Origin: Rubellimicrobium rubrum | GTDB lineage: Bacteria; Pseudomonadota; Alphaproteobacteria; Rhodobacterales; Rhodobacteraceae | NCBI RefSeq assembly: GCF_006152115.1 | Contig: NZ_VDFU01000027.1 | Coordinates: forward strand, 1 to 57,941 | DNA: 57,941 nt | Reading direction: 5' to 3' | Shown: positions 437 to 42,375 of the stretch, one piece after another | Layout: each line of letters starts with the position of its first letter | Numbering within the stretch: the stretch's first letter is position 1 | The notes under the pieces: model-generated | The model's database searches: none | Told to the model about the DNA's origin: nothing | Seen by the model: only the letters and a program-made list of their open reading frames with translations | Made by a program: the position numbers and the translations under genes

Positions 437-1108
437 TCACTTTGCCGTCTCCTGCAACGCGAAGACGGGCCTTTGCGCGACCAGGGCATCGAGCATGGCC
501 TGGAGCGCCTTTCTTTCCGTCTGCGTCACCGAATGATCGCGGCCGGGGAAGATGTCCGTCCGCAGACGTGCGCCCTGTTCGATCAGGATCTGGCACATCT
601 CGGTGTGGTTGGCGGACGGGATCCAGGGGTCCAGATCGCCGCAGCTTGCATAGATCGGCATCCCCTCGATCCGGGCGACCGGACGGTCATCCGAAGAGAC
701 ACCGACCCGGCAGCCCGTCAGGAAACATGCCGCGCCATCCCAAGGACCGCGCCGCATGAGGTACTCCACGGAAAGGCAGGCGCCTTGCGAGAAGCCGCCA
801 AGCACCAGGGGCGCGCCCGGGCTCTCCGCTTCGGCCGATGAAATGGTCTGCGATAGCCGCGCGAGCGCAGCCTCGAGTTGCGAGCGCCCGGCGTCGGTCA
901 GCGGATCCACGGCCTTCACGTCGTACCACGCCAGGCCATCCGACTTGGGCAGGACGAAACGGACGGAGGGTGCGTCGAGATGCTGGATCACGTTCTCCAT
1001 CATGTCCGCAGGCGATTGCGTGCGGCCATGGACAAAGACGCAGACGACCTTCGCATCCGCCGGTGCCGCGCCGTGGAACACGGTGTTCTCGAAATGACCC
1101 TTGGACAT
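437..1108 (-). CDS. MhqD-like phospholipase/carboxylesterase (alpha/beta hydrolase)
   Basis: A 223-residue cytoplasmic alpha/beta hydrolase of the Abhydrolase_2 type. Visible motifs are VHGRTQSP (oxyanion region, about residues 26-33), the nucleophile elbow GGFSQGA with Ser107, an acid in GDLDPW (Asp158 or Asp160) and the catalytic His192 in GRDHSV. A longer open frame exists upstream, but it overlaps the ring-cleaving dioxygenase gene, so the ATG at 1108 is chosen. The gene starts 25 bp after that dioxygenase. The pairing of an extradiol-type ring-cleaving dioxygenase with this esterase matches the Bacillus mhqO-mhqD pair of the methylhydroquinone stress regulon, where both help remove quinols. 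A role in hydrolysing a cleavage product or an aromatic ester is inferred; the substrate is not known. Confidence 0.85.
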   Translation of the reverse strand: MSKGHFENTVFHGAAPADAKVVCVFVHGRTQSPADMMENVIQHLDAPSVRFVLPKSDGLAWYDVKAVDPLTDAGRSQLEAALARLSQTISSAEAESPGAPLVLGGFSQGACLSVEYLMRRGPWDGAACFLTGCRVGVSSDDRPVARIEGMPIYASCGDLDPWIPSANHTEMCQILIEQGARLRTDIFPGRDHSVTQTERKALQAMLDALVAQRPVFALQETAK

Positions 1109-1133
1109 GCTCAGGTCATCCTCCGTCCTGATG

Positions 1134-2084
1134 TCACCAGGTGTACTTTTCGAGCCCGGCCGCGATCTCTTCCTTCCGGTCGGCGAACCACGGCGGGAAC
1201 TGCAGGGCCTGGCCCAGGGCATCGGCGGGCTCGTCCTTGGCCCAGCCTTCGCCATAGGAGAAGGCGAGCTCGAACAGCGCCCCGCCAGGCGAGCGGACGT
1301 AGCAGGACTTGAAGTAGTTGCGGTCCTTCTGGTCCGACACGTCGGTGAAGCCCAGGCCCTCGAGATGGGCCTTGAGGCCAAGCTGGTTCTCTTCGTTCAG
1401 CGTATTCAGCGCCAAGTGGTGGATGGTGCCGCCGGACAGGGTCCAAGTGCCTTGTGGCTGGTTCGGCTCGTGAAGGATCTCCACCGCGCCCCCGGGGCCC
1501 GACGTGGGCAACGAGAACTGAAGCGCGCCCCCATCATCACCTCGCCCCTCCATCTTGAGCCCGACAGTCAGGAAGTCGTCCATCGAGGTCTTGTCAAAGA
1601 CCGCGATCCCCACGCCGTAGATGCCCTTGATCCCCTGCGTGGAGATGCCTTCCGACACGATCGGCCGGCGGGCGTCTTCGGCCTCGGAGGTCTCCACGAG
1701 CTCATGGGGAATGCCGCAGGGATGCTCGGTCATGATGCGGGTGCGGGTGAAGCGGTCGACCTTGTTTGCCGGTCGGCCGGCAGCCGAAAGGCGCTCCACC
1801 CAGAAATCGGCGCTGCCCTTCGGGATCGACAGCATGATGGTCTTGGACTGGTTGGTGCCCCGGCGCCCGTAGACGCCCAGCTTGCGGAACGGGAAGGTCG
1901 TCACGACCGTGGACGGATCGCCCGTCTCGTTGCTGTAATAAAGGTGGTAGACGGGCAGGGTGCCGTCGAAGAGCACCGTCTTTTTCACCGACTTCATGCC
2001 CAAGGTGCCGGTGTAGAAGTCGTGATCCTCCTGCGCGCCGTCCACGCTCAGCGTCACATGATGATAGCCGTCTATGAGTGACAT
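1134..2084 (-). CDS. MhqO/PcpA-like ring-cleaving dioxygenase (VOC superfamily)
   Basis: A 316-residue protein of the two-domain vicinal oxygen chelate family that includes PcpA (2,6-dichlorohydroquinone 1,2-dioxygenase), LinE and MhqO. Matching PcpA by eye, the Fe(II) ligands should be His9 in GYHHVTL, a His in GTIHHLALN (222/223) and Glu272 in GALFELAF; all are present. Other family features such as PVYHLYY, TTFPF and RNYFKSCYVRSPGG are also intact. The expected reaction is O2-dependent opening of a hydroquinone-type ring to an acylic product. The ATG at 2084 is preceded by GGGAGGAGG; the longer upstream extension lacks support. It follows the intradiol dioxygenase gene by 28 bp and precedes the MhqD-like esterase, suggesting one transcript for quinol disposal. 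Confidence 0.9.
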   Translation of the reverse strand: MSLIDGYHHVTLSVDGAQEDHDFYTGTLGMKSVKKTVLFDGTLPVYHLYYSNETGDPSTVVTTFPFRKLGVYGRRGTNQSKTIMLSIPKGSADFWVERLSAAGRPANKVDRFTRTRIMTEHPCGIPHELVETSEAEDARRPIVSEGISTQGIKGIYGVGIAVFDKTSMDDFLTVGLKMEGRGDDGGALQFSLPTSGPGGAVEILHEPNQPQGTWTLSGGTIHHLALNTLNEENQLGLKAHLEGLGFTDVSDQKDRNYFKSCYVRSPGGALFELAFSYGEGWAKDEPADALGQALQFPPWFADRKEEIAAGLEKYTW

Positions 2085-2112: not shown

Positions 2113-3024
2113 TCACTTTGCCCGCCTTCGCGTCGGAGCCGACTGGGGCGCCCCGGCATCGCCTTTCGCCTCCCACCGCTCCGGCGTCAGCACGAGCATC
2201 CAGTCGAGGCGCAGGCCGGGCCCGGTTTCCTCGACCGGAAGAAAGCGGGTCTGCAGCCGAGGGTCCTCGGCGAACAGGGCGTCGGTCCCGGTCGCGGCAT
2301 CCTCGGCGTCGAAGACATGCGTCACGAGGTCCTCGAAGCCGCGCGCCGTCACCCTGAAATGCAGATGAGCGGGACGGCGCATGGGCAGGCCGAGCGCCGA
2401 CAGCAGGCGACCGACCGGACCGTCCGACGGAAGCGAGTAGCCCTTTGGACGGATGGTCCGGAAGTGCACAAGGCCATCTTTGCCTGTCAGGAAGGCGCCT
2501 CGGAGATTGAGGTCCGGCTGGTTGTCGGGGTCCTGATTTTCATACAATCCCTCGTGGTTCGCCTGCCATACTTCGAGAAGCGCGCCGGTCACGGTCTTGC
2601 CCGCGAGATCCCGGATCGTCACGCTGACGTCGAGCGGCACGCCGGCCGCGACCTGGGCGATGTTCGTACCGTGGGCCATGACCGGGACCCCGGACCGGTA
2701 GAAAGGCCCCTGGATCGTGTTGGGCGTGGCCTCGGCGGGACGTGGGGCATTCAGCGCCTCGACAAGGCTCGTGATGCCCAGGGCATCCGCGAGCAGCACC
2801 CATTCCTGGCGATTGCTGTCGCAGGCATAGCCCACCTCGGTCAGGAACTGGATCAGGGAGGCGAGCTCGCTCCGTGAGATCCGGTTCGACTGGGCGAGAT
2901 GGTCGAAACAGGCGATAGCCTCGCCCACCAACGCCGCCAGCCGCGGATTTCGCGCATCCGTCATGCGCTTTCGCAGCATCGTCGGCAGGCCTCCGGCCGT
3001 CTGGAAGGGCTTGCTCATGCTCAC
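2113..3024 (-). CDS. Intradiol ring-cleavage dioxygenase (catechol/hydroxyquinol type)
   Basis: A 303-residue non-haem Fe(III) dioxygenase with the N-terminal helical dimerisation domain (about 20-100) and the C-terminal beta-sandwich catalytic domain. The predicted iron ligands are Tyr161 (VWQANHEGLYEN), Tyr196 (RPKGYSLPSDGP), His220 and His222 (RRPAHLHF). It should open a catechol or hydroxyquinol ring between the hydroxyls. The motif GPFYRSG differs from GPFFVEG in the second intradiol enzyme of this window, so the two probably prefer different substrates. The start is a GTG with GGGGAGG five bases upstream; an in-frame ATG six bases further is possible. It is the first gene of the quinol operon and is divergent from a LysR regulator. 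Confidence 0.87.
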   Translation of the reverse strand: MSMSKPFQTAGGLPTMLRKRMTDARNPRLAALVGEAIACFDHLAQSNRISRSELASLIQFLTEVGYACDSNRQEWVLLADALGITSLVEALNAPRPAEATPNTIQGPFYRSGVPVMAHGTNIAQVAAGVPLDVSVTIRDLAGKTVTGALLEVWQANHEGLYENQDPDNQPDLNLRGAFLTGKDGLVHFRTIRPKGYSLPSDGPVGRLLSALGLPMRRPAHLHFRVTARGFEDLVTHVFDAEDAATGTDALFAEDPRLQTRFLPVEETGPGLRLDWMLVLTPERWEAKGDAGAPQSAPTRRRAK

Positions 3025-3135: not shown

Positions 3136-4086
3136 ATGAAGTTCGACGAGCGTCATCTCGTCCAGATCGCAGCGGTCGTAGCCTATGGTGGCGTCACGGA
3201 AGCCGCACGGGAACTGGGCCTTTCACAACCCGCGATCTCGCGCACGATCGCGATGATCGAACGCCGCCTGGGCGAGCCGCTCTTCGTCAAGGGCCGTCGG
3301 CCCCTGCGCCCTACGCCCCTGGGCGAGCTCATCGCCAAGCACGGCGAGGTCATCCTGAGGGCGTCCCGCAAGGTATCCGAGAACATCGCGAGCTATCGCC
3401 AGGGCAGCACCGGAGTCGTCCGTATCGGCGGGGTGCCGTATTTCATGGACGCGTTCATTTCCGGCATGATCGCCTCCTTCCAGGTCCAGCATCCGGATGT
3501 TCGCGTGGACCAGTCCTACGGACACTTCTCGGAGCTGAGCGCCCAGTTGGAATCCGACCAGATCGATCTGGCGATCACCCCGATGGGCACGAGCGATCCC
3601 GGCGAGAACCTGCATTTCGTGCCGCTCTTGCCGGCTCGCAACGTCGTCACGGGGCGATCCAGACACCCGCTCCTCGCGAAGCGCATCCTGGCGACGACCG
3701 ATGTCCTCTTCTACCCATGGGTCGCGCCGCTGCCGGGGTCGCCGCTGCTCCTCGACCTACACTCGATCCTTCTGACGCTGGGGATCGACGAGGTTGCGAT
3801 CCGCTATTCCGGGGGGTCGCTCATGAGCGTCTGCAACTACATCACCAAGACGGATGCCCTTGCCATCCTTCCTCATAGCGTTGTGTTCTCGATGCGGCAT
3901 GAGAACCGGATTGCCATCATCCCGCTCGACATCCCCCAGCCGAAGCGGATCATCGGGATCCTGTCCTCGGCCGCGGCACCGATGAACGCCGCCGTCCAGC
4001 GCATGTCGGATCATATCGCCCGCGAGTTCGCGAGCCTGAGCGAGGCGATCCAGCGCCACGAGCGATCGCTGGTCTGGGGCCACTGA
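3136..4086 (+). CDS. LysR-type regulator of the adjacent quinol-cleavage operon
   Basis: A 316-residue LysR-type transcriptional regulator. The N-terminal winged helix-turn-helix covers about residues 1-60 (VTEAARELGLSQPAISRTIAMIERRLGEPLF), followed by a linker helix and the periplasmic-binding-like effector domain (about 90-300), which starts with the usual GVVRIGGVPYF. The gene is transcribed away from the dioxygenase operon with a 111-bp shared promoter region, the classical arrangement for a LysR activator and its target. Its effector is presumably an aromatic acid, quinol or ring-cleavage product, but this cannot be read from the sequence. Confidence 0.9.
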   Translation: MKFDERHLVQIAAVVAYGGVTEAARELGLSQPAISRTIAMIERRLGEPLFVKGRRPLRPTPLGELIAKHGEVILRASRKVSENIASYRQGSTGVVRIGGVPYFMDAFISGMIASFQVQHPDVRVDQSYGHFSELSAQLESDQIDLAITPMGTSDPGENLHFVPLLPARNVVTGRSRHPLLAKRILATTDVLFYPWVAPLPGSPLLLDLHSILLTLGIDEVAIRYSGGSLMSVCNYITKTDALAILPHSVVFSMRHENRIAIIPLDIPQPKRIIGILSSAAAPMNAAVQRMSDHIAREFASLSEAIQRHERSLVWGH

Positions 4087-4154: not shown

Positions 4155-5240
4155 TCAGTCGGCTTGCGCCAGCTCCGCCGCACGGTCGATGAAGAACTGC
4201 GCCGTTTCGGCGTTGTTGGTCTCGGCCATCATGAAGTGGCCGACGCCCGGGAACCCCTCATCGGGCATGTGATGGGCCATGACCTCGGCTCCGGCCTGCT
4301 GCAGCGCTGCCGCGTTGCAGTCGAGCTGCTCCTTGGTGACGAAGATACCCGAAGCCACCAGGACGATGGGAATGCCGGACAGGTTGGGCAGGGTGCTCGG
4401 GGTTCTTTCAGCCTGCGCCGGGCAGGCCTCGGTTCCGGCGGGCGCATAGTCGGCCGGCAGCGCCGGTTCCCAGGTCAGGTGCGCTCGCATCTCTTCGTCG
4501 GCGATGGGGTTCGAGCCCGAAGCCTCGAAGGCGATGATGCCGACGACGTTCTCGGGGTTCATGTCGGCGGCCATGTAGGTGCTGCGTCCCCCTGCGGAAT
4601 GGGAGATCAGGATCGCGGGACCGATCTCGTCGAGAAGGAGGCTGATATCCTTGGCCGCGATCTCGTTGCCGGCATAGGGCGTGGTCTGGGATGTCTTGAG
4701 CCAGTCGATCACCGCCTCGTTCGTGGGGGTCACCTCGCCGCCGGGCCAGTTCTCGGACTGGGCAAGGCCGGCGATGATTCCCGAATGGGCCTGACCCAGG
4801 GTGCCCTCGCCATAGCTCGGCGCGGCCGGGGAGCGGCCGTAACCAGGGCGGTCCACCGAATAGACGTCGAATCCCGCATTCACGAAGTAGTCGCGCCAGC
4901 CGTCGCGGCCGTCAGGCGTTCCTGCCCAGTCGATCGCCTGACCGCCGCCGCCGTGAACAAGGACAACCGGCACGTCGTACCGCCGCTCGGCAGGCAGGAA
5001 GAACTCGACGTGCATCTGGTTCGAGACGGTCACGTTGCCGTCCGCATCGGGCTCGCTGACGTCGCCGCCCACGACCATGAAGCCGGCGTCGCGCAGGTGC
5101 ATGGCGCCGGCCTCTCCGCCGGGTCCGTCCTTCAGGTCCTGCGCGGCTGTGGCATCCTGGGCCGCGACGGACCACGCCGCCACGAGCCCGACCGTCACCC
5201 CTGCCAGAAGCCGGGCTCTTGCTTTCTGCATGTTCGCCAT
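4155..5240 (-). CDS. Exported alpha/beta hydrolase (esterase)
   Basis: A 361-residue predicted periplasmic esterase. A basic start (MQKARAR) and hydrophobic stretch to about residue 27 look like a Sec signal peptide ending near SVAAQDA. The hydrolase core has the oxyanion motif VHGGGG (about 95-100), the nucleophile Ser215 in SHSAGG, a likely acid Glu239 in AFEASG and catalytic His335 in GVGHFM. The layout resembles the bacterial esterase 713 group. The start is supported by GAGG seven bases upstream. The natural substrate is unknown. Its place among aromatic catabolic genes suggests it could release phenolic acids or alcohols from esters outside the cytoplasm. Confidence 0.85.
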   Translation of the reverse strand: MANMQKARARLLAGVTVGLVAAWSVAAQDATAAQDLKDGPGGEAGAMHLRDAGFMVVGGDVSEPDADGNVTVSNQMHVEFFLPAERRYDVPVVLVHGGGGQAIDWAGTPDGRDGWRDYFVNAGFDVYSVDRPGYGRSPAAPSYGEGTLGQAHSGIIAGLAQSENWPGGEVTPTNEAVIDWLKTSQTTPYAGNEIAAKDISLLLDEIGPAILISHSAGGRSTYMAADMNPENVVGIIAFEASGSNPIADEEMRAHLTWEPALPADYAPAGTEACPAQAERTPSTLPNLSGIPIVLVASGIFVTKEQLDCNAAALQQAGAEVMAHHMPDEGFPGVGHFMMAETNNAETAQFFIDRAAELAQAD

Positions 5241-5323
5241 CCGTTATCCTCGCTTGTCATTCGTGGTTGCGGCCTGATGGCCGACGTCCGCAGGACCGGA
5301 GCAGGCCAGGGCAGACCGGCATC

Positions 5324-6679
5324 TCAGTCGAAGGAAAAGAGATCCTCACCCTCCGGGCGGGTCATGCCGTCCTCGTGATACTTCTCCCAGACTCGGGCCC
5401 AGGGGCGTCCGAATATGTCCGGGACTTCGTATACGAAGGTGCTGCCGGGCTGGACGTTCTGCTGATAGCCGTCGACCGGAAAGATGGTGGCGACGCATTC
5501 GACAAAGACGTACGGGTCCACTTCGTTCAGGGCGCCGGTGCGCTTGAGGTCGCGGACGATGCGGACCGGTTCGACCAGGGCCTCGGGGTCGTAGAGGATG
5601 GTTTCCTGGTTCAGGCCCTGGAAGGCACCCGTTTCGTCCAGCCAAGGCGTGAAGACGTCGATCACCTGCAACTGGTTCGAATGCTCGAAGGCATTGTGGG
5701 TGGTCCAGCCCTGGATGTTCGAGGTCCAGGTGATGAGCGCCTCGCCGTCCCAGAAGCCGATCGTCTCGCCGTACCAGCGGGGAACATCCTCGCCCAGACG
5801 GGGCACGGCCCCATCCATGTTGAAATCACGGCCGATCTGGATGTGGCGGATGAAGTTGTCCGCCGTGCCGCCCAGGATCTGCACCTGCGTGGGCGTGAGC
5901 ATGAAGTCGTTCTCGATCATCGCTGGCCATTGGTAGAGCCGCATGTAGCCCTCGGGCCAGCAGTAGGAGGCTGGCCATTGATGGGCGTAGTCCACGCCGG
6001 TGTGGTAGGCCTGCTGGACGAAGCGGGTCTGATACTCCTCGGTCAGGAGAGACAGGATGGTCGGCACCTGGTTGACGTGCATGTTGAACCAGTTGGTCCG
6101 CCCGCCATGCCCCAGACCTTCGGGGATCAGGACGTCGAAGTCGTTGAGCGAATAGCGTCCGTCCCAGTCCGGCAAGCTGCTGCGGTCGTGCTCGGTCGGG
6201 CCGCCGTTCGCCTGGGTCTCGGCCAGGAGGGCCTCGTAATGCTCCTGCGCCGTCGCGAAGCCGTAGGGGCTCACGATGGCCTCGCGCGGGTAGTCGGCGT
6301 TGCAGTCCCCCCAGGGGGCCTGGGCCGGATCCTCGTTGTTGATCGGCTGCGAGTTGGGGTAGGCGCCCCACTGGTTCTCGATGCCCACCGAGCTGTTGCA
6401 CCGGAAATAGCGCGGATCGCTCCAAAGGTCGCGGTCCGCGTAGAAGTCGTCGGTCGTGAACAGATCCACCGGGAGCGGCTCAATCCCTTCGGGGGCCTCT
6501 CCGGCCGGTGCCGCCGGCTTGCCGCCGAGCATGGTCGTCGGCCCCACTGGCTGGGTCGCCAAGGGCTCGACGGGCCAGCCGCGTCCGATGCTCGCAGGCT
6601 CCTGCGCCAGAGTGGGCGTCGCTGCGCTGAATAGCAGCGAAGCCAGGGCCACAGCAACATTCGTGCTTTGCCGAAGCAT
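5324..6679 (-). CDS. Secreted protein of unknown function, first of two tandem paralogues
   Basis: About 451 residues with a typical signal peptide ending near TPTLAQEP. The mature protein is rich in Trp, Tyr and acidic residues and carries the block [26 protein letters not shown]. That block recalls the R-W-x-G-x-(S/T)-x-G-x-W-(D/E)-G-(D/E) motif of a large, poorly characterised exported family common in soil bacteria that degrade hydrocarbons or steroids. It also carries [19 protein letters not shown] and a [11 protein letters not shown]-terminus. Two ATGs lie six bases apart. GGAGG abuts the first and sits six bases before the second, so the second (6679) is preferred. It is paralogous to the next gene upstream, 113 bp away. 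I do not recognise an enzymatic signature. Confidence 0.8.
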
Positions 6680-6792
6680 GGTCATCCTCCGGTGTTCAGC
6701 AGATGGGAATGGATGGCCTGGCGCTCCGCTTCCGGCGGTTGCGCCAGGTCGGACGCCGGTCGGGAGGAAAGAGCGCCCGGCCGGCGACGTCG

Positions 6793-8172
6793 TCAGTCGA
6801 AGGAGAACATGTCCTCGCCCTCGGGCGCCTCGATGCCCATCTCCTCCTCGACGCGCGCCCAGGTCTGGGCCCAGGGACGGCCGAACATGTCTGGCACCCG
6901 ATAGTCGATCACGTCGCCGGGCGAACGCGGCGTGGCGACCCCGCGCTCGTCCGGGAAAAGGGTCTGGACGCATTCGATGAAGACGTAGGGCGTGCCGTCG
7001 TTGACCTCGCTTTCCTTGACGAGGTTGCGGACGATGCGGATCGGCTCAACGAGCGCCTCCGGATCGTAGAGGACGGTTTCGTGGTTCAGCCCCACGAAGT
7101 TCCCCTGCCCGTCGCGATTAGGGGTGTAGATCTCGATGGTCTGGAGCTGGTTCGAGTACTCGAAGGCGTTGTGCACCTTCCAGCCCTGGATGTTCGAGGT
7201 CCAGGTGATCAGCGCCTCGCCGTCCCAGAAGCCGACCGTCTCGCCGTACCAGCGGGGGACGTCCTCGCCCAGCCGAGGCACGTCGCCCTCCGTATTGAAC
7301 TCCGCGCCGACATAGATGTTGGTCACGAAGTTGTCCGCGACGCCGGCCATGACCTGCACGATGTCTGGCGTGGCGATGACCTGATGGTCCCACACGGAGT
7401 ACTGGTGAAAGCGCCGCATGAAGCCTTCAGGCCAGCAGAACTGGGACGGCCACTGGGACACCCCGCTGTTGGCCTGATGAAAATGCTCCTGCACGGCACG
7501 TTCCTGGTACTCGGGCGTGAGCAGGGACAGGATCGTCGGGATCTGGTTCACCCTCATCCAGTACCAGCTGTCGGCGTTTTCCCCGGTGCGCGGGTCCTGG
7601 TAGTGGCCGGTCCATTCGCCAGGAACCGTCTCGTAGGTGTGCTCCGTCGGGCCGCCGCGGGCTTGGGTTTCGGCGAGAAGGGCCTCGTAATGCTCCTGCG
7701 CCGTGGTGAACGGGTAGGGGCTCACGATGGCCTCGCGCGGATAGTCGCGATCGCAGTACCCCCAAGCCGCGGTGGCCGGGTCGCCTTCGAACATGGTGTT
7801 GCCGCCGTAGGCGCCGCGCTGGGCTTCAAGTCCCAGTCCGGAGTTGCAGCGGAAGTAGCGGGGATCCGACCAGAGTTCCCGGTCGGCATAGAAGTCCGTC
7901 GTCGTGAAGATGTCGCGGTCCAGAGGCTCGACGCCCTCCGGAACCTCTCCGTTCGTCGCCGCGGCGACGACGGTCTCGGGCGTCTCGCCTTCGCGGTTGC
8001 GCAGGACCGTTCCGCCCTTTCCGGGACCAACGACGTCGTGGTCGCCGATGTCAGCGGCCAGCGGCGCGCCGCGTCCGACGCTCTCGACATCCATCTGCGC
8101 CGTCTGTTGCGCGATGGCAGGGCAGGCTGCGGCAAAGGCCGCGAGCGATGCATGCATCAGTACTCGTTTCAT
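6793..8172 (-). CDS. Secreted protein of unknown function, second tandem paralogue
   Basis: About 459 residues, clearly homologous along its length to the following gene. Shared blocks include [13 protein letters not shown] in near-identical form, [70 protein letters not shown] and the C-terminal [10 protein letters not shown]. It has a signal peptide ending near CPAIAQQT and no lipobox at the cleavage site. The ATG at 8172 has GGGAGG six to eight bases upstream. Conserved paired cysteines (RCNS, GYCDRDY, FCWPEGF) suggest disulfides in the periplasm or outside the cell. The two genes probably form one transcript read away from the IclR gene. Function unknown. Confidence 0.82.
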
Positions 8173-8701
8173 GGGGTCCTCCCTTCGATGCGCCGCGACG
8201 ACGCGCAGCCGAGCCCGATTTCCGGGCCATTCTTGTTCACATCTGAAACAAGGGGCGGACGGCGCCCCGCAACCAGACGAACCCGTCCCGTTTGCTTCGC
8301 TGCCTCGTCCCCCTCGCCTGGGGCCGAGCGTCTCCTCCAAGTGAAAAATGGGAGCATCCGTCAAAGTTGAGTATACTCTTTCGCGTCCACAATATGCCGC
8401 ACGGTTATCCTGACGGCGGCGCGCAGCACGGCCTGTGTTGCTGCGCGTCCGGACGGTGTGGCGGCGTCCGCACCCCGGAGGAAAGCGCAGAGCATCTGAA
8501 AGTGCACGTCAGGCCTGCAGGGCAGGGGTGGCCGATCTCACCGAATGCTCTGCGAACGATGCAGGGCGGACACCGGAAGATCCGTCGATCCAAGCTGACG
8601 GCCACATCTTCGAGCTTGCGGCGCGAGCGCCGAACATCCTAGCCAGCATCTGGGCCGGTTCGCCTATCGACATTTGTTCGATAAGCGAACATGATGAGGG
8701 C
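8173..8701. other. Divergent intergenic region with candidate operators
   Basis: No convincing gene. It separates the minus-strand secreted-protein pair from the plus-strand IclR gene. It holds an inverted repeat CTTGTT/AACAAG (8232-8252, 9-nt centre) near the secreted-protein promoter, a 10-bp perfect palindrome GAGTATACTC at 8369-8378, and the IclR-type operator just before the regulator gene. Confidence 0.6.
8675..8691. promoter_or_regulatory. PcaR/PcaU-type operator upstream of the IclR gene
   Basis: Inverted repeat TGTTCG-ATAAG-CGAACA, ending 10 bp before the regulator's ATG. The inner 15 bases GTTCGATAAGCGAAC differ at only two positions from the 15-bp PcaR site of Pseudomonas putida as I recall it (GTTCGATAATCGCAC). 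Its position over the leader suggests autoregulation. Confidence 0.7.
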
Positions 8702-9466
8702 ATGTCACGTGATTCGACCAGCGATGTTGTCGGGGCGCTCGCCAAAGGGTTGAGGGTTCTCGAGTGCTTCCGGGCGGATCAGCCGCGGCTGTCGATCACC
8801 GATGTAGCCAACGCCACAGGTTACGACCGGGCCACGGCAAGGCGTTGTCTTCTGACCCTCGTAAGCCAGGGTTATGCCACCCATGACGGCAAGTACTTCG
8901 CATTGACGGCGCGGGCGCTGCGGCTGGGCATGGGCGCCTTGACCGCGATGCCGCTGCCACAGATCGTGCAGCCGTGGCTGGATCAGCTTTCGCAGCAGGT
9001 GGGCCATTCGGCATCGGTCTCGATCCTCGACGGCACCGAGATCGTGTATCTCGCCCGGGCCTCCCAACGACGGGTCATGTCCATCGGTTTGATGCCGGGA
9101 TCGCGCTTGCCAGCCTATTGCACCTCCATGGGCCGTGTCCTGCTTGCGGCTCTGCCCGAAGCGGAAGCGCGAGGGATCATCAACGCGTCGGAGCTTCGGC
9201 CCCGAACGCCGCAGACGCTGACCCATCCCGACGCGATCATGACACGCATCGCCGAGGTGCGGCGGGATGGCTTCGCCGTCATTGATCAGGAGGTCGAGAT
9301 GGGACTTCGCTCGATCGCGGTGCCGCTGGAATCCCAAGGGGGAAAGGTGGTGGCTGCCATGAACCTCGGGATGGCCGCGGTGCATGCGAGCATTGACGAC
9401 ATGGTGGCCGATTGCCTGCCCAGGATGCGCGTCGTCCAGGAAGGGCTTCGTCGGGAACTGACATGA
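8702..9466 (+). CDS. IclR-family regulator of the PcaR/PcaU/PobR type
   Basis: A 254-residue IclR-family protein. The N-terminal winged helix (about 15-75: LAKGLRVLECFRADQPRLSITDVANATGYDRATARRCLLTL) and the C-terminal effector domain (about 90-250, with YLARAS, GSRLPAYCTSMGRVLLA, GFAVIDQEVEMGLRSIAVP) match the subgroup controlling beta-ketoadipate and 4-hydroxybenzoate genes. The long upstream frame extension is rejected because the ATG at 8702 follows GATGAGGG and a fitting operator. The gene lies ahead of the maleylacetate/hydroxyquinol genes in the same direction, so activation of that cluster by a pathway intermediate such as 3-oxoadipate is likely, but inferred. Confidence 0.9.
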   Translation: MSRDSTSDVVGALAKGLRVLECFRADQPRLSITDVANATGYDRATARRCLLTLVSQGYATHDGKYFALTARALRLGMGALTAMPLPQIVQPWLDQLSQQVGHSASVSILDGTEIVYLARASQRRVMSIGLMPGSRLPAYCTSMGRVLLAALPEAEARGIINASELRPRTPQTLTHPDAIMTRIAEVRRDGFAVIDQEVEMGLRSIAVPLESQGGKVVAAMNLGMAAVHASIDDMVADCLPRMRVVQEGLRRELT

Positions 9467-9640: not shown

Positions 9641-10711
9641 ATGACCCGATCCGAAGAGCTAGCGTTCGTCTACACCGGGCGTCCTGGGCGCGTCATCTTT
9701 GAACGCGGCGCTCGCGCGAAGGTGGTCGAGGAGCTCGAACGTCTTGGCGTCAGCTCGGCCATCATCATCACGACGCCAGCCCAGGCCGATGTGGCCGAGG
9801 AGTTCGCCTCTGCGCTCGGGAAGCGGGCGGGGGTCGTCTACACGGGCGCGGCGCAGCATACCCCGACCGAAGTGACCGAGGATGCCATGGAGACGCTCCG
9901 GTCCGCTGGGGCGAATGGCTGCCTCGCCATCGGGGGTGGCTCAACCATCGGCTTGTCCAAGGCCATCGCGCTGCGCACCGACCTGCCGCAACTCGTCGTG
10001 CCGACCACCTTTGCCGGGAGCGAGATGACACCGATCCTTGGCCAGACCCAGGCAGGCCGCAAGACCACCCTGACCGACCCGAAGGTCCAGCCCGAGACGG
10101 TCATCTACGACCCGGACCTCCTCGCGACCCTCCCGCGGGAGATTGCGGGACCTTCCGCGCTCAATGCCATCGCCCATTCGATGGAGGCGCTCTATGCCCG
10201 CGAGGCCAATCCCGTCATCGACATGTTCGCCGAGGAGTCCATCCGCGCCCTGGGCGAGTCGGTTCCGGTCTTCATGGGCGAGGGTGACCCTGCGCACGCC
10301 TATGAGACGGCCCTTTACGGCGCTTGGCTGGGCGGAATCTGCCTGGGCAGTGTCGGCATGGCGATCCATCACAAGATCTGCCACACGCTGGGCGGGACCT
10401 TCGACCTGAACCATGCCGACGTTCACTGCCTCATGCTCCCGTATTCGGCGGCCTACAATCGGGAGGCCGCACCCAGGGCCATGGCGGCCATCGCCCGGGC
10501 CCTGGGAGCAGACGATGGCCCGAAAGGTCTGTTCCGGCTGATGCAGGTCGCGGCGCGGGTCACGTCGCTGCGCGATTTCGGCCTGACCGAAGCCGACCTT
10601 GATCGGGCAGCCGATCTGAGCGTCGAGAATCCTTACTGGAACCCTCGTCCCGTGACGCGCGAGGGGGTGCGCGAGATGCTGCAACAGGCTTGGCAGGGCC
10701 AGGAGCCGTGA
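9641..10711 (+). CDS. Maleylacetate reductase
   Basis: A 356-residue iron-containing alcohol dehydrogenase-fold enzyme of the maleylacetate reductase (MacA/TfdF) group, which reduces maleylacetate to 3-oxoadipate with NAD(P)H. Visible features are the nucleotide-binding GGGSTIGLSKAIAL (about 97-110), PTTFAGSEMT, ALNAIAHSMEALYA and HHKICHTLGGTFDLNHADVHCLMLPY, which carry the conserved active-site histidines of the family. It starts 174 bp after the IclR gene, with AAGG ahead of ATG 9641, and precedes the phenol hydroxylase by 125 bp. In the proposed pathway it connects ring opening of hydroxyquinol to the beta-ketoadipate endpoint. Confidence 0.93.
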   Translation: MTRSEELAFVYTGRPGRVIFERGARAKVVEELERLGVSSAIIITTPAQADVAEEFASALGKRAGVVYTGAAQHTPTEVTEDAMETLRSAGANGCLAIGGGSTIGLSKAIALRTDLPQLVVPTTFAGSEMTPILGQTQAGRKTTLTDPKVQPETVIYDPDLLATLPREIAGPSALNAIAHSMEALYAREANPVIDMFAEESIRALGESVPVFMGEGDPAHAYETALYGAWLGGICLGSVGMAIHHKICHTLGGTFDLNHADVHCLMLPYSAAYNREAAPRAMAAIARALGADDGPKGLFRLMQVAARVTSLRDFGLTEADLDRAADLSVENPYWNPRPVTREGVREMLQQAWQGQEP

Positions 10712-10836
10712 TGCGGCAGCAACCGACCAGAGGCACGATCCACGGATCTGTTCCATGCCGATGCTCACCGGCAATCGTGGGCAAGGAGCCTCCATCTTCG
10801 GGGGCCCATGAGGATCAGGAGGCAAGGAGTTAAGAG

Positions 10837-12591
10837 ATGGCGGACATCGTCACCGACGTGCTCATCATCGGCACCGGCCCGGCGGGCTCTGCCACCGCCG
10901 CGCTCTTGTCGAGCCAAGGCGTCGCCAACATGGCGGTGAATCGCTACCGTTGGCTGGCCAACACGCCGCGCGCGCACATCACCAACCAGCGCACCATGGA
11001 GGTGCTGCGCGACCTTGGCCGCGAGGTGGAGGACGAGGCCTACCTTCATGCCGCGCCGCAGGACCTGATGGGAGAGAACGTCTTCTGCGAAAGCCTTGCG
11101 GGCGAGGAGATCGGCCGCATGAAGAGCTGGGGCAAGCACCCGCTGTCCCGCGCCGAGCATATCCTGACCTCGCCCTGCCGGATGAACGACCTGCCGCAGA
11201 CCTTCATGGAGCCGATCCTGTTCAAGACGGCCTGCGCGCGGGGCACGCAAAGCCGGATGAGCACCGAGTACGTCTCGCACGAGCAGGACGCCCAGGGGGT
11301 CACGACGACGCTGCGCGACCGGCTGGACGGGCGGACCTTCACCGTGCGGTCCAAGTTCCTGGTGGGCGCGGACGGCGGCAACTCACTCGTGGCCGAGCAT
11401 GCGGGCCTGCCGTTCGAGGGGCGGATGGGCGTGGGCGGCTCCATGAACATCCTGTTCCGCGCGGACCTGAGCCGCTACGTCGCGCACCGGCCCTCGGTCC
11501 TTTACTGGGTCATGCAGCCCGGCGCGGATGTGGGCGGGATCGGCATGGGCTTGGTCCGCATGGTCCGGCCCTGGAACGAATGGCTGATCGTCTGGGGCTA
11601 TGACATCAACCAGCCCGCCCCGGTGGTGGACGAGGCCCTCGCGACCCAGGTGGCGCGGCAGCTCGTGGGCGACCCGGACCTGCAGATCGAGCTTCTGTCC
11701 GCAAACACCTGGACCGTGAACAACATGTACGCGACACACATGCACAAGGGCCGCGTCTTCATCATGGGCGATGCCGCGCACCGGCATCCACCGTCGAACG
11801 GGCTGGGATCGAACACCTCTATCCAGGACGGGTTCAATCTGGCTTGGAAGCTGGGGATGGTGGCCAAGGGACAGGCGTCGCCCGCGCTGCTGGACACCTA
11901 CTCCGCTGAGCGCGCGCCCATAGCCAAGCAGATCGTCACCCGCGCCAACCAGTCCATCGCCGAGTTCGGGCCCATCTTCGAGGCGCTGGGCATGGACGGC
12001 GGCGTGGACACCGACAAGATCCAGCGCAACATGGCCGCCCGCTGCGACGCGACGCCAGCCGCCGAGACCCAGCGCGAGGCGCTACGCCGCGCCATTGCCG
12101 ACAAGTGCTACGAGTTCGACGCCCACGGGGTGGAGATGAACCAGCGCTACCGCTCCTCTGCCATCGTCACCGACGGACAGCCGGAGCCGCCCTTCGAGAA
12201 GGACCCCGAGCTGCACGCCCAGCTCACCACCTGGCCCGGGTCGCGCCTGCCGCATGCCTGGGTCTTCGACCGCCAAGGCCGGGAGATCTCGACGCTCGAC
12301 CTATGCGGGCGGGGGCAGTTCACCCTGTTGACCGGCATCGGCGGCGAGGGTTGGGTTGAAGCCGCCCAACGGGTCGGCGCGAGCCTTGGCCTGCCGATCC
12401 GGGCGCACGTCATCGGTCCGCGGCGCGCCATCGAGGACCATACCGGCGACTGGGCCCGCGCGCGCGAGATCGGCGATGCCGGGTGCATCCTTGTCCGTCC
12501 GGATCACCACGTCTGTTGGCGCAGCGCCGGCCTCGCCTCCGACCCGGAGGCCGAATTCGGGCGCGTCCTCACCGCCATTCTGGGGAGATGA
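10837..12591 (+). CDS. FAD-dependent phenol hydroxylase (TfdB-like)
   Basis: A 584-residue class A flavoprotein monooxygenase. It shows the FAD-binding GTGPAGSATAALLSSQG (about 12-28), the NAD(P)H/FAD motif KFLVGADGGNS (about 171-181), the ribityl-binding GRVFIMGDAAHRHPPSNGLGSNTSIQDGFNLAWKL (about 303-337) and a C-terminal thioredoxin-like domain. Closest in feel are 2,4-dichlorophenol 6-monooxygenase (TfdB) and related ortho-hydroxylases of phenols or resorcinol. One oddity is MAVNRYRWLANTPRAH, where many relatives have an acidic residue binding the adenosine ribose. Its stop overlaps the hydroxyquinol dioxygenase leader by ATGA, so the two are translationally coupled. The likely product is hydroxyquinol or a substituted form; the exact substrate is not readable. 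Confidence 0.9.
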   Translation: MADIVTDVLIIGTGPAGSATAALLSSQGVANMAVNRYRWLANTPRAHITNQRTMEVLRDLGREVEDEAYLHAAPQDLMGENVFCESLAGEEIGRMKSWGKHPLSRAEHILTSPCRMNDLPQTFMEPILFKTACARGTQSRMSTEYVSHEQDAQGVTTTLRDRLDGRTFTVRSKFLVGADGGNSLVAEHAGLPFEGRMGVGGSMNILFRADLSRYVAHRPSVLYWVMQPGADVGGIGMGLVRMVRPWNEWLIVWGYDINQPAPVVDEALATQVARQLVGDPDLQIELLSANTWTVNNMYATHMHKGRVFIMGDAAHRHPPSNGLGSNTSIQDGFNLAWKLGMVAKGQASPALLDTYSAERAPIAKQIVTRANQSIAEFGPIFEALGMDGGVDTDKIQRNMAARCDATPAAETQREALRRAIADKCYEFDAHGVEMNQRYRSSAIVTDGQPEPPFEKDPELHAQLTTWPGSRLPHAWVFDRQGREISTLDLCGRGQFTLLTGIGGEGWVEAAQRVGASLGLPIRAHVIGPRRAIEDHTGDWARAREIGDAGCILVRPDHHVCWRSAGLASDPEAEFGRVLTAILGR

Positions 12592-12593
12592 AC

Positions 12594-13514
12594 ATGGAAC
12601 GGGATGGATTCTTCACGGAAGAGGACTCGGTGCAGGTCGTCACCGGCCGGAACCGGGGCGCCAAGGATGAACGCCTTCGCGAGGTCATGGAGGTCATCAC
12701 CCGCAAGCTTCATGAGGCCGTCAAGGAGATCGAGCCCACCCAGGACGAATGGATGGCCGCCATCCAGTTCCTGACCGCCACGGGCCACATGTGCAACGAC
12801 TGGCGGCAGGAGTTCATCCTGCTATCGGACGTGCTGGGCGTGTCGATGCTTGTGGACGCGATCAACCACCGCAAGGGCGGTGAGGTCGGGGCGTCCGAAA
12901 GCACCGTGCTCGGCCCCTTCTTCGTCGAAGGGGCGCCCGAGCTGCCGATGGGCTCCGACATCTGCAAGGACGGCAAGGGCGAGCCGATGTTCGTCCACGG
13001 TCGCATCCTCAATGCGGAAGGCAATCCCGTCGCGGGCGCCCGGATCGACGTCTGGCAGGCGAACGACGAAGGGTTCTACGACGTCCAGCAGAAGGGCATC
13101 CAGCCCGACTTCAACCTGCGGGGCGTGTTCCGGACGGGGCCGGACGGGCGCTACTGGTTTAAGGGCGTGAAGCCTAAGTTCTACCCGATCCCGGACGATG
13201 GTCCGGTGGGCAAGCTCCTGGGCGCGCTGGGCCGTCATCCCTATCGGCCCGCGCATCTCCACTACATGATCGAGGCGCCGGGCTTCGATACCCTCGTGAC
13301 CCACATCTTCGATCCCGCTGACCCTTACATCGGCTCGGACGCGGTGTTCGGGGTGAAGGAAAGCCTTTTGGCGGAGTTCCGGCCCGTGGACGACCCCTCT
13401 GCCATGGAGGCCTCGGGCTTCGCGGGGCCCTTCCTTGATGTGGAGTTCGACTTCGTGCTGTCGCGGCCCGGGCACCGGGACGGGGCGACCGAGTCGACGG
13501 GGGCGCTCGAATGA
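12594..13514 (+). CDS. Hydroxyquinol 1,2-dioxygenase
   Basis: A 306-residue intradiol dioxygenase. Iron ligands are Tyr162 (VWQANDEGFYDVQ), Tyr197 (PKFYPIPDDGP), His221 and His223 (RPAHLHYM). The motif VLGPFFVEGAPE is the pattern found in hydroxyquinol 1,2-dioxygenases rather than catechol enzymes, which favours cleavage of 1,2,4-trihydroxybenzene to maleylacetate, the substrate of the reductase two genes upstream. Two ATGs lie six bases apart (12588, 12594). GGGGAG abuts the first and is six bases from the second, so 12594 is preferred. If 12588 is used, the start overlaps the hydroxylase stop. Its own end overlaps the next gene by ATGA. Confidence 0.93.
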   Translation: MERDGFFTEEDSVQVVTGRNRGAKDERLREVMEVITRKLHEAVKEIEPTQDEWMAAIQFLTATGHMCNDWRQEFILLSDVLGVSMLVDAINHRKGGEVGASESTVLGPFFVEGAPELPMGSDICKDGKGEPMFVHGRILNAEGNPVAGARIDVWQANDEGFYDVQQKGIQPDFNLRGVFRTGPDGRYWFKGVKPKFYPIPDDGPVGKLLGALGRHPYRPAHLHYMIEAPGFDTLVTHIFDPADPYIGSDAVFGVKESLLAEFRPVDDPSAMEASGFAGPFLDVEFDFVLSRPGHRDGATESTGALE

Positions 13515-14350
13515 CCGAGCCGTGCATCATCTGCGTAGCGATCACCGGCTCCCTGCCGCAGAAGTCCGACAACCCGGCGGTGCCGATCAGCATCAGCGAG
13601 CAGGTGGAAAGCACGCAAGAGGCGTTCGAGGCCGGGGCCACCATCGCCCACTGCCATGTGCGCGACGACGAAGGAAAGCCCACCTCCGACCCGGAACGCT
13701 TCGCCCGCCTCAAGGAAGGGCTGAAGAAGCACTGCCCCGGCCTGATCGTCCAGCTTTCGACCGGCGGCCGGTCGGGGGCCGGGAAGGCGAGGGGGGGCAT
13801 GCTGCCGCTGCGCCCCGACATGGCCTCCCTTTCGGTGGGCTCCAACAACTTTCCGACCCGTGTCTACGAAAACCCGCCCGACCTCGTGGACTGGCTCGCG
13901 GCCGAGATGCTCGCCCACGGGGTCAAGCCCGAGGTGGAGTGCTTCGACCTCAGTCACATCTTCAAGGCCGCGCAGATGCATCAGGCGGGCCAACTCGCGG
14001 GGACACCTTATCTCCAGATCGTCATGGGGGTGAGGAACGCCATGCCTGCAGACCGTCCGGCCTTCGACTTCATGGTCGGCACGATACAGCGTTTCTTCCC
14101 TGGCGCGCCTTGGTGCGCGGCCGGGATCGGCCCTGCGCAGATCGTGCTCAACGAATGGGCTGTGGCAAGCGGGGGGCACGCGCGCACGGGGCTTGAGGAC
14201 AACGTGCGGATGGACCGCCACACCCTCGCGCCATCCAACGCTGCACTGGTGCGGCGCGTGACCGAGATCTGCGACCGGTACGAACGGCCCGTCGCCACCT
14301 GGCAGCAGGCCAGGGAAAGGCTAGGCCTCGGGATGCGAGCCGCAGAGTGA
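13511..14350 (+). CDS. Beta-keto acid cleavage enzyme (BKACE, DUF849)
   Basis: A 279-residue TIM-barrel zinc enzyme of the BKACE family, whose founder is 3-keto-5-aminohexanoate cleavage enzyme (Kce). Members condense a beta-keto acid with acetyl-CoA to give acetoacetate and a new acyl-CoA. The zinc-binding pair His47/His49 sits in AHCHVRDDEG, and Arg225/Glu229/Asp230 in GGHARTGLEDN align with the Kce catalytic residues. As the last gene of the operon, overlapping the hydroxyquinol dioxygenase by ATGA and cotranscribed with maleylacetate reductase, the natural substrate is inferred to be 3-oxoadipate, giving succinyl-CoA plus acetoacetate. This would replace the usual CoA-transferase and thiolase steps. 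The family call is secure; the substrate is inference. Confidence 0.9.
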   Translation: MTEPCIICVAITGSLPQKSDNPAVPISISEQVESTQEAFEAGATIAHCHVRDDEGKPTSDPERFARLKEGLKKHCPGLIVQLSTGGRSGAGKARGGMLPLRPDMASLSVGSNNFPTRVYENPPDLVDWLAAEMLAHGVKPEVECFDLSHIFKAAQMHQAGQLAGTPYLQIVMGVRNAMPADRPAFDFMVGTIQRFFPGAPWCAAGIGPAQIVLNEWAVASGGHARTGLEDNVRMDRHTLAPSNAALVRRVTEICDRYERPVATWQQARERLGLGMRAAE

Positions 14351-16441: not shown

Positions 16442-17428
16442 TCATCCAAGCCAAGGAACGATAGCGGCATAATCATAGAGCTGCTGTGACAAAGCGTTGA
16501 TGTCCGCTTCGCTGTCGAAGCGCAGTCCATCTTCGAAGTCCTCGCCTGAAAAGCCTTTCAGCGTCAGAGTCTCGCCGTCGCTGATGGTGAATACAGTGCT
16601 GGTTCCGTTGTCGTTGACGTCAGTGACAGTGATCCCGGAGTCGTAGAGTGAGAACTCGAGGATGTCGCGCTCCCTAAGGCTGAAGTCGAGAATGCGGTCA
16701 TTGCCGACCCCGTAGCCCGGGTCCGGCGGGCCGCCCTCGTCGCGGCCAATATCCTCGTCGCGCAGGTAGAGGAACTGGTCCGCACCCGAGCCGCCTGTGA
16801 AGTCGTCCGCGCCCAGGCCATCAACCAGGCGGTCCCGGCCCGAGCCGCCGAACAGATTGTCACTGCCGTTCCGGCCGTTCAGGTCGTCATCGCCCCGACC
16901 GCCAAAGAGATCGTCGTTCTCACCACGACCATCCAGCGTATCGTTGCCGTTGCCGCCATGGAGGTCGTCATCGCCGAGATTACCGGTCAGACGATCATCC
17001 CCGGAGCCACCATAGACCCGGTCGTTTCCCCGCTCGGGCTCCGGAATCTCACCCCGATCGAAAAGGAAAGAGTCCCCCAAGATGTTGTCGTTGCCAGCAC
17101 CGCCGTAGATCACGTCCGTGCCGTCGCCGCCCCAGATGGTGTCATCCCCAGAACCGCCGTAAAGACTGTCGCGGTCGTCGCGACCGTGAAGGAGATCGAG
17201 GCCGTCACCTCCATAGAGTGTGTCGCGGCCTCCGCCGCCGTCCAGGGTGTCGCCGCCCCTCGCTCCGCTGATTGTGTCGTTGCCGGCGCCTCCGAAGATC
17301 TCGTCGGCTTCAGGGCCACCACTCAGGCGCGCGCTGCCCGGGCCGCCCTCGATCAGTCGGGCCGCTTCGGTGAAACGAGCCGTCTGAAGCCCTGTCCAGA
17401 TCGGGCTTTCAACGATGTTCGGTGCCAC
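16442..17428 (-). CDS. RTX (haemolysin-type calcium-binding) repeat protein
   Basis: About 328 residues. The central part (roughly 35-215) is a run of nonapeptide RTX repeats of type GGxGxDxLx, for example GGAGNDTIS, GGDGLDLLH, GGSGDDTIW and GGNGNDTLD, which bind Ca2+ in a parallel beta-roll. The C-terminus (GNDRILDFSLRERDILEFSL to LTLKGFSGEDF) is the usual RTX cap and type I secretion signal region; no Sec signal is expected or seen. The GTG at 17428 is preceded by GGAGGAGG seven bases away, which decides the start over a longer frame. No protease or lipase domain is attached, so it is probably a small extracellular calcium-binding protein. No type I secretion genes are nearby. Confidence 0.87.
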   Translation of the reverse strand: MAPNIVESPIWTGLQTARFTEAARLIEGGPGSARLSGGPEADEIFGGAGNDTISGARGGDTLDGGGGRDTLYGGDGLDLLHGRDDRDSLYGGSGDDTIWGGDGTDVIYGGAGNDNILGDSFLFDRGEIPEPERGNDRVYGGSGDDRLTGNLGDDDLHGGNGNDTLDGRGENDDLFGGRGDDDLNGRNGSDNLFGGSGRDRLVDGLGADDFTGGSGADQFLYLRDEDIGRDEGGPPDPGYGVGNDRILDFSLRERDILEFSLYDSGITVTDVNDNGTSTVFTISDGETLTLKGFSGEDFEDGLRFDSEADINALSQQLYDYAAIVPWLG

Positions 17429-18199
17429 TTGGGATCCTCCTCCGGTCACATGGCCGGTCGGATCTCGGCTGAGTCCTGACTCGTGGGGTGAAAGCCTAGA
17501 TCTTAAGTGATGCTGCGCAACAGTTAGGTTGAAGATGCCGACTGCTTCGAAAATCAGCTTCCCAGAGCCCAACACAACCAGTCGTCTGCCGGATCGGCAG
17601 CCGAAAGATCGAGAGGAGCGCGGGCCTGCTGGTAGTCGGCGCAGGGCAGCGTTTCCCTAGGTGTTGCCGCAGGGCATAGACCGTGGGCGCCGCTGTCGGG
17701 CGCATCTTCGGATCTCGTGGTACCTAACCTTGGGGCCGAGTGTCGTCGAGTGGGCAGCGACGAAGGGCCAAACACGCATACCGTGACCTCGCTGTCCGGT
17801 CAGGGCGATCTGCACGGTGACCCCGGACATCGAACAGGCGGTTCCGCCGCATTACCCGCAGAGGTCCAGGACCACGGAGGAGGTCCCCAGGTCAGAGTCG
17901 AGTCGCCATGGTTGAGGATGAGGTCGGTGGCGGGGAGGCCACCGGGCCGGATGATGCGGACAGGGCTGCGAAAGCATGCGTCCGCCGGCACAGACGCGTC
18001 GCGCGTCCCCTATTCGTGGCCGAGCGCGGCTGTGTCACGGACGGCGGTGCCGGCCGGGTGGACCCCCCGACCGCGGGTGGCATCGAGGAAGTCCGCGAGG
18101 GCCAGAAGACCCAGAGCGGAAGGCGCGGTCATGGCGGATCCTTTGGTGGCCGTGTCCCCGCCCTTGTCCGTTCCGGGCTTGCGACAGGCAATCCATTGC
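17429..18199. other. Region without recognisable gene
   Basis: Between the RTX gene and the AI-2E transporter remnant. Frames of 60-290 codons exist on both strands, but they overlap one another and none carries a recognisable domain or convincing ribosome-binding site. It is probably decayed sequence. Confidence 0.45.
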
Positions 18200-32700: not shown

Positions 32701-32935
32701 AGATGTAGCGCAGGCCGTCGAGGCCGGTCATCTGCTGCTCGATCACCTGGGTGACCGTGTTGCCCACCGTCTCGGCCGAGGCTCCGGGATAGCTCGCCCG
32801 GATCGAGACGGATGGAGGCGCGATCTGCGGGTACTGCGCGACCGGGAGGGTCAGCACGGCCAGCAGGCCCACGCCCATGATGAGGATCGAGATCACCCAG
32901 GCGAAGACGGGGCGGTCGATGAAGAAGCGGGCCAT
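29795..32935 (-). CDS. RND multidrug efflux pump, inner-membrane transporter (AcrB/MexB-like)
   Basis: A 1046-residue hydrophobe/amphiphile efflux-1 RND pump. It starts [20 protein letters not shown], the typical first helix, and has 12 transmembrane helices with two large periplasmic loops. The proton-relay aspartate pair is in [18 protein letters not shown] in TM4, and the TM10-11 region includes [14 protein letters not shown]. Length and order match AcrB/MexB. The ATG at 32935 is chosen by homology and a GGAGAG upstream; the upstream extension overlaps the adaptor gene end. It starts 25 bp after the adaptor gene and needs an outer-membrane TolC-type channel, which is not encoded nearby. 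Confidence 0.96.
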
Positions 32936-42365: not shown

Positions 42366-42375
42366 GGAGGGCAGC

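Follow-up and report, generated by a model that had tools for sequence, protein, structure and literature searches.

How does a hydroxyquinol pathway end when its genes stand next to a beta-keto acid cleavage enzyme (BKACE) instead of the usual PcaIJ and PcaF? The question is raised by positions 9641 to 14350 of a 57,941-nucleotide contig of Rubellimicrobium rubrum (NZ_VDFU01000027.1; the whole contig is called the window here), which is one of the 104 contigs (number 20) in a draft assembly of 4.6 Mb that is 99.98 % complete. The initial annotation placed four same-strand genes there, and the open reading frames (ORFs) and their Pfam and NCBIfam matches agree with it. All on the plus strand, they encode a maleylacetate reductase (MAR; 9641..10711, 356 amino acids), a group A flavin hydroxylase of the HbpA/TfdB type (10837..12591, 584 amino acids), a hydroxyquinol 1,2-dioxygenase (HQD; 12588..13514, 308 amino acids from the overlapping ATG, with a second in-frame ATG at 12594) and a BKACE (KCE; 13511..14350, 279 amino acids). 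Of the three ATGA overlaps described earlier two are present on the plus strand, from hydroxylase to HQD (12588..12591) and from HQD to KCE (13511..13514), while MAR and the hydroxylase are separated by 125 bp. We consider it probable that the locus is a hydroxyquinol funnel ending in a 3-oxoadipate-cleaving KCE, whose acetoacetate would be reactivated by SCOT and thiolase or used for C4 assimilation.

The KCE protein scored 479.4 bits against the curated NCBIfam equivalog NF053568, named 3-oxoadipate:acetyl-CoA acetyltransferase (cut-off 350), and 302 bits against PF05853. It is the sole BKACE in the genome, and on these matches it is predicted to act on 3-oxoadipate and acetyl-CoA. Its solved relatives are the DUF849 structures 3fa5 (496 bits), 3chv and 3no5. 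We also considered the lysine-fermentation enzyme, Kce proper, and rejected it, as the score against NF052387 was 239.6 bits with a cut-off of 382. In the alignment to 2y7d, the Kce of lysine fermentation, H47 and H49 match the HxH motif, S83 is conserved and a leucine takes the position of Glu14. We take the two histidines to be ligands of the BKACE metal site and Glu14 to be the reader of the substrate amine, the numbering being likewise assumed.

The three other enzymes are consistent with a hydroxyquinol pathway. MAR carries Pfam Fe-ADH domains, and its solved relatives are led by 3jzd (367 bits), named just an iron-containing alcohol dehydrogenase; the best named ones, 3hl0 and 3w5s (361 and 357 bits), are maleylacetate reductases. 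HQD contains both dioxygenase domains, PF04444 and PF00775, and stays under the cut-off of the NCBIfam catechol equivalogs. Its solved relatives are the 6-chlorohydroxyquinol dioxygenase 8r2x (324 bits), PnpC (3n9t, 266 bits) and the hydroxyquinol dioxygenase 1tmx (263 bits), followed by an unnamed intradiol entry (250 bits) and another hydroxyquinol dioxygenase (231 bits), while the best catechol dioxygenase reached 158 bits. For the hydroxylase, the solved relatives are 2-hydroxybiphenyl-3-monooxygenase (4cy6, 601 bits) and 2,4-dichlorophenol 6-monooxygenase (6u0p, 463 bits); the solved phenol hydroxylases 1pn0, 1foh and 8r2u match at 60–65 bits only. Full-length homologues with 74–83 % identity are encoded by 24 others among 198 genomes that each represent a different genus of the same family, Rhodobacteraceae (the family sample).

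Flavoproteins of the HbpA/TfdB type hydroxylate ortho to the phenolic hydroxyl group, and ortho-hydroxylation of phenol gives catechol. Phenol, the substrate proposed earlier, was for this reason abandoned: given where the enzyme type hydroxylates, the precursor of hydroxyquinol would be resorcinol or hydroquinone. We infer from these relatives and from the adjacency to HQD that the enzyme is a resorcinol or hydroquinone hydroxylase. A catechol or protocatechuate route in this genome was rejected as well, since the search for intradiol dioxygenases returned no pcaGH pair but HQD, a second hydroxyquinol-type enzyme of the window (HQD2) and, on contig 27, an intradiol-like protein whose N-terminus resembles a secretion signal by eye.

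The initial annotation had suggested a check for pcaIJ and pcaF elsewhere in the genome. No PcaF was found over the cut-off: two thiolase genes match the pcaF model below it (the best with 365 bits, 597 being required), and both are acetyl-CoA acetyltransferase-like. The genome has a single CoA-transferase pair, on contig 15, which matches the mixed PcaI/ScoA and PcaJ/ScoB subfamily models over their cut-offs, NCBIfam having only mixed models. The pair is SCOT-like: among solved structures, subunit A matches SCOTs best, and the two subunits share 82 % and 85 % identity with SCOT-type genes that neighbour KCE in loci L026 and L032 of related genomes, compared with 47 % and 49 % identity with PcaI and PcaJ from locus L042. 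No acetoacetyl-CoA ligase over the cut-off was found in the genome. SCOT-type genes adjoin KCE or are separated from it by a few genes at most in 8 of 80 related loci (L025, L026, L030, L032, L041, L053, L085 and L086), and also in L099 and L101. The BKACE ending, with 3-oxoadipate as the predicted substrate, stands, as the NF053568 cut-off is exceeded, the genome has no PcaF over its cut-off and its one CoA-transferase pair is SCOT-like. Two other earlier claims are not supported: a self-contained cassette, because the CoA-transferase and the thiolases sit on other contigs, and a bypass of the usual transferase and thiolase, because acetoacetate needs activation and thiolysis and SCOT-type genes stand near KCE in relatives.

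The 80 loci are the closest relatives of the window's KCE in named genomes rather than a random sample, and the organisms that carry the closest ones likewise point to Rhodobacteraceae. They were read by tblastn, and gene names rest on the best match to window proteins or cluster representatives and on crude ORF calling. HQD lies upstream of KCE on the same strand in nine of them (L020, L039, L046, L049, L050, L068, L073, L074 and L077), and the family sample adds at least nine more (L090–L097 and L109); co-location counts for KCE are lower bounds, taken from 150 of the KCE places, in 132 genomes of this sample. As these 18 loci were chosen for holding both genes, it is their spacing and recurrence that are informative. 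With the start codon taken nearest to the match, the distance from the HQD stop to the KCE start is -4 bases, i.e. a four-base overlap, in 10 of the 18, and between -4 and +7 bases in 17, the exception being L046 with 2.8 kb. Order and tight spacing are kept in genomes of different genera. Fuller loci such as L050 (Ruegeria arenilitoris) and L097 have the order MAR, transporter gene set, hydroxylase, HQD, KCE; the set in L050 comprises a periplasmic binding protein and two ABC ATPases according to Pfam, and two permeases recognised by eye. MAR has a LysR gene as its immediate neighbour in the hydroxylase-HQD-KCE clusters L091, L093, L096 and L109.

That KCE may fill the slot of PcaIJ and PcaF is indicated most directly by relatives with pcaF. 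Genome G121, which has no KCE match, carries homologues of the window's module together with IclR-pcaI-pcaJ-pcaF on one 57 kb contig (L106, L107). There LysR, HQD2, a VOC gene and a transporter gene adjoin pcaF, while HQD, LysR, MAR and the hydroxylase follow about 20–25 kb further on; the IclR protein is 63 % identical to the one of the window. In the more distant clusters L114 and L115 (hydroxylase 56 %, dioxygenase 31–32 % identical), pcaF is directly beside MAR. Both endings can also be seen side by side: in Paracoccus siganidrum (L042, 8001–13769) a pca cluster contains KCE, and after a few kb comes IclR-pcaI-pcaJ-pcaF, KCE and pcaIJF lying within 6 kb; here pcaI and pcaJ were named from context and pcaF from its 84 % homologue in G121, which is over the pcaF cut-off.

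The substrates, reactions and regulation proposed for the pathway are predictions. The HbpA/TfdB-type flavoprotein would convert a dihydroxybenzene, most likely resorcinol or hydroquinone, to hydroxyquinol by ortho-hydroxylation. HQD would then open the ring to give maleylacetate, and MAR would reduce it to 3-oxoadipate. KCE would then convert 3-oxoadipate and acetyl-CoA to succinyl-CoA and acetoacetate. The most likely fate of the latter is reactivation, in which SCOT would turn acetoacetate and succinyl-CoA into acetoacetyl-CoA and succinate and a thiolase would cleave the acetoacetyl-CoA; alternatively, acetoacetate may be used directly for C4 assimilation. In the first case the net reaction would be 3-oxoadipate and CoA to succinate and acetyl-CoA, as with PcaIJ and PcaF, with the CoA-transferase acting on acetoacetate and acetyl-CoA serving as a primer. 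Since the net is the same, the supposed bypass would amount to a relocation of CoA transfer and thiolysis to acetoacetate. An IclR protein resembling PcaR may serve as the sensor of 3-oxoadipate; the candidate, a member of the PcaR/PcaU/PobR family, is encoded directly upstream of MAR (8705..9466, plus strand; TIGR02431 324 bits, cut-off 284.75), and its 63 % homologues stand divergently beside pcaI-pcaJ-pcaF in L042 and L106.

KCE is common in the family: it was found over the cut-off in 141 of the 198 genomes, compared with 119 for pcaF and 77 for PF04444 dioxygenases. Among 96 KCE rows (the window, 80 from named genomes and 15 fetched ones), 53 are accompanied by pca genes, 18 by HQD (the window included) and seven by a third type of intradiol-dioxygenase cluster. 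This recurring divergent cluster (L085, L086, L098–L102; KCE between 7032 and 9964) has the dioxygenase, 37–40 % identical to the window's HQD, on the strand opposite to KCE, and scoA-type genes follow KCE in L085, L086, L099 and L101. In L099 two genes come before KCE, an ORF that matches nothing in Pfam and an alpha/beta hydrolase. An initial 'cat' label for these seven loci was dropped after L099 was found to consist of an intradiol dioxygenase, the Pfam-less ORF and the hydrolase.

A tree of the 96 rows (95 different sequences, the KCE of L104 being the same as that of L023) was built by a quick method; a few of the rows come from the same genomes (L104/L023, L103/L088). With 97 % SH-aLRT, the sister of the window's KCE is the KCE of Rubellimicrobium aerolatum (L010), a gene located in a pca cluster. 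For the label HQD-linked the tree requires a minimum of 11 changes, three of them forced by the starred branches; the count is soft, as 34 of the 92 inner branches are open, cut contigs are also scored as changes, and gain and loss are not told apart. As far as the tree and the gene neighbourhoods go, the surroundings of KCE have changed more than once. A broader scenario, for and against which we give equal weight, is that KCE, with or without SCOT, is in this family a portable module feeding acetoacetate into ketone-body and C4 metabolism that was repeatedly plugged into protocatechuate, hydroxyquinol and third-type intradiol clusters and replaces pcaIJF in hydroxyquinol modules that are otherwise similar, and that the window's copy was probably recruited from a protocatechuate cluster since lost from its own lineage. 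Two observations stand apart. Near a hydroxyquinol-type cluster in genome G091, which has no match to NF053568, lies a distant BKACE homologue (L117, position 11283) with 30 % identity to the window's KCE. In four KCE places among the matches listed (G052:C11, G043:C29, G171:C7 and G029:C37) one TGA lies inside the matched stretch.

We also searched 299 Pseudomonadota genomes, of which 24 have KCE over the cut-off, 10 of them from the window's family. Intradiol dioxygenases were sought in 20 of the 24, four genomes of the family (G000, G023, G055 and G075) being left out. Outside the family, an intradiol gene pair stands right upstream of KCE, as pcaHG would, in 5 of 14 genomes (G201, G256, G282, G361 and G453), and in three more the intradiol genes are on other contigs only. 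A lone HQD-type gene directly upstream of KCE was seen in none of the 14; within the family, G400 has a lone intradiol gene in this position.

Several results weigh against the proposed pathway. In 6 of the 14 KCE genomes outside the family (G205, G225, G244, G337, G345 and G462) no intradiol dioxygenase was found at E <= 0.001, which speaks against taking every NF053568 member for the end of an intradiol pathway; KCE in these six would point to another source of 3-oxoadipate or another substrate. These genomes slightly reduce our confidence in the proposed pathway. In the family sample, KCE adjoins 9 of the 20 hydroxylase-HQD pairs (19 at 74 % identity or more, and L094) and does not adjoin the other 11, of which nine were read (all but G118 and G142, the latter ending at a contig edge); for seven of the 11 a KCE is present elsewhere in the genome. 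Among the 96 KCE loci, 18 have none of the tested aromatic genes nearby, some of them being cut by contig ends. KCE and pcaF do not exclude each other either, since 92 of the 198 genomes have matches to both, compared with about 85 expected under independence (KCE alone 49, pcaF alone 27, neither 30; the pcaF matches may include some PaaJ). Finally, the nearest solved relatives of KCE carry no function, substrate promiscuity of BKACE enzymes is described in the literature (in part of PMC4922564), and in the BKACE pathway of P. simiae, according to a passage of PMC6365646, the thiolase matters and no CoA-transferase is needed, for which the authors blame redundancy.

Further aromatic genes lie upstream in the window. 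On the minus strand lie a PcpA-like VOC ring-cleavage dioxygenase of the hydroquinone type (1134..2084, start codon not settled), with 2,6-dichloro-p-hydroquinone 1,2-dioxygenase 4huz as its best solved relative (221 bits), and HQD2 (2113..3024), for which this is the 6-chlorohydroxyquinol dioxygenase 8r2x (188 bits). They are followed by a LysR-type regulator on the plus strand (3136..4086), which matches the NCBIfam PcaQ model with 127 bits, under the cut-off of 303.8. Homologues of the VOC enzyme (59–64 %) occur in the related clusters L097, L106, L108, L111 and L112, those of HQD2 in L097, L105, L106 and L108, and those of LysR (36–68 %) likewise in related clusters. Since L097 also carries the LysR, HQD2 and VOC genes, the module probably extends beyond 9641–14350; judging from gene content it probably spans about 1.1–14.35 kb, with three other genes (4155–8178) inside and the transporter absent.

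These genes offer the rival that survives best, although we still regard it as unlikely: the cluster would mainly degrade chlorinated or hydroquinone-type phenols via the PcpA-like dioxygenase and HQD2, the hydroxylase and HQD would form a side branch, and KCE would take (chloro)3-oxoadipate from both. Besides their position upstream in the window, the PcpA-like VOC and the (chloro)hydroxyquinol-type HQD2 recur near MAR in L097 and L108; however, the tblastn queries found no VOC or HQD2 gene in L091, L093, L096 and L109.

We judge it quite unlikely, though slightly less so in view of the six KCE genomes lacking intradiol genes, that 3-oxoadipate is activated by a broad-specificity contig 15 CoA-transferase and cleaved by a general thiolase, with KCE serving another beta-keto acid and owing its position to history. 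The matches of the pair to the mixed models, the two sub-threshold thiolases and the frequent co-occurrence of KCE and pcaF-family genes would fit such a route. The closeness of the pair to SCOT-type genes near KCE rather than to PcaI/PcaJ, the SCOT relatives of subunit A, the distance of the best thiolase from the pcaF cut-off and the tight HQD-KCE coupling across genera all speak against it. A chance juxtaposition of unrelated catabolic genes, or a misannotated general beta-keto acid enzyme, could draw on BKACE promiscuity but is very improbable in view of the NF053568 score and of the tight spacing in 17 of the 18 chosen loci from different genera, and the chance cluster was rejected.

Several other features of the window complete the picture. 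A phospholipase/carboxylesterase-type alpha/beta hydrolase (437..1267, minus strand, start codon not settled; Pfam Abhydrolase_2 47.5 bits, no NCBIfam match), which adjoins the ring-cleavage genes, is an uncertain member of the module. Between the two halves of the module lie another alpha/beta hydrolase (4155–5240) and, adjoining it, two similar proteins on the minus strand (5324–6661 and 6793–8178), whose N-termini look by eye to be of the secretion type and which match neither Pfam nor NCBIfam. A promoter scan returned no promoter-like site, and a terminator scan one terminator-like site, inside MAR, the mean for shuffled sequences being 1.8. Downstream of the operon there is an RTX calcium-binding repeat protein (16442–17575, minus strand) with eight HemolysinCabind stretches. 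Ordinary neighbours are a CHASE3/GAF/PAS hybrid histidine kinase (18786–21590, minus strand), an AcrB-type efflux pump (29795–32920, minus strand) and cytochrome bd oxidase subunit II (42364–43389, plus strand).

The replacement of PcaIJ and PcaF by KCE is already in print for protocatechuate. New here are the linkage to hydroxyquinol, the related cluster with pcaIJF instead and the presence of KCE in several cluster types, which together form a combination of known parts. We found no publication joining hydroxyquinol with BKACE or 3-keto-5-aminohexanoate cleavage in the open-licence literature, though one may exist elsewhere. The locus would extend to the hydroxyquinol branch a shortcut that was proposed recently for the beta-ketoadipate pathway, and the results suggest that aromatic carbon may enter metabolism via acetoacetate in a large family of environmental bacteria. 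Annotation seeking only pcaIJ and pcaF would score such pathways as incomplete. SCOT is a testable candidate partner, unmentioned in the protocatechuate passages of the published work.

The closest known systems are the Methylobacterium pca operons, which, as described in part of PMC8963497, lack pcaI, pcaJ and pcaF and hold DUF849; the same passages cite Bastard et al. 2014 for the predicted action of DUF849 on beta-ketoadipate. In PMC12379598 the gene is named kce, and M. extorquens that had received pcaHGBL, kce and vanABK on a plasmid grew on protocatechuate; the passages on this growth contain no kce deletion. A Methylobacterium locus (L051, 77 % identity to the window's KCE) is among the 80 closest relatives. 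Common to both systems are a KCE in an aromatic operon without PcaIJ/PcaF and the proposed products succinyl-CoA and acetoacetate. They differ in that the Methylobacterium clusters serve the protocatechuate branch (pcaHGBL), whereas a hydroxyquinol branch (hydroxylase, HQD and MAR) is found here, and in that the Methylobacterium passages name no SCOT partner, while one is proposed here. The 3-oxoadipate BKACE of Bastard et al. 2014 and NF053568 belongs to the same family, to which the window's KCE is assigned by its score, and the operon setting is additional; in part of PMC4922564, beta-ketoadipate is listed among the substrates for one BKACE group. In deoxyribonate oxidation a BKACE releases acetoacetate, to be turned into acetoacetyl-CoA and acetyl-CoA, as a passage of PMC6365646 describes; acetoacetate release would be common to both pathways, while the beta-keto acid differs. 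With the classical hydroxyquinol pathway the locus shares the HQD and MAR steps to 3-oxoadipate, and a relative of that kind with pcaIJF lies on one contig (L106/L107). The last two steps of the classical pathway are those of PcaIJ and PcaF, whereas here their place would be taken by KCE, a putative SCOT and an acetoacetyl-CoA thiolase.

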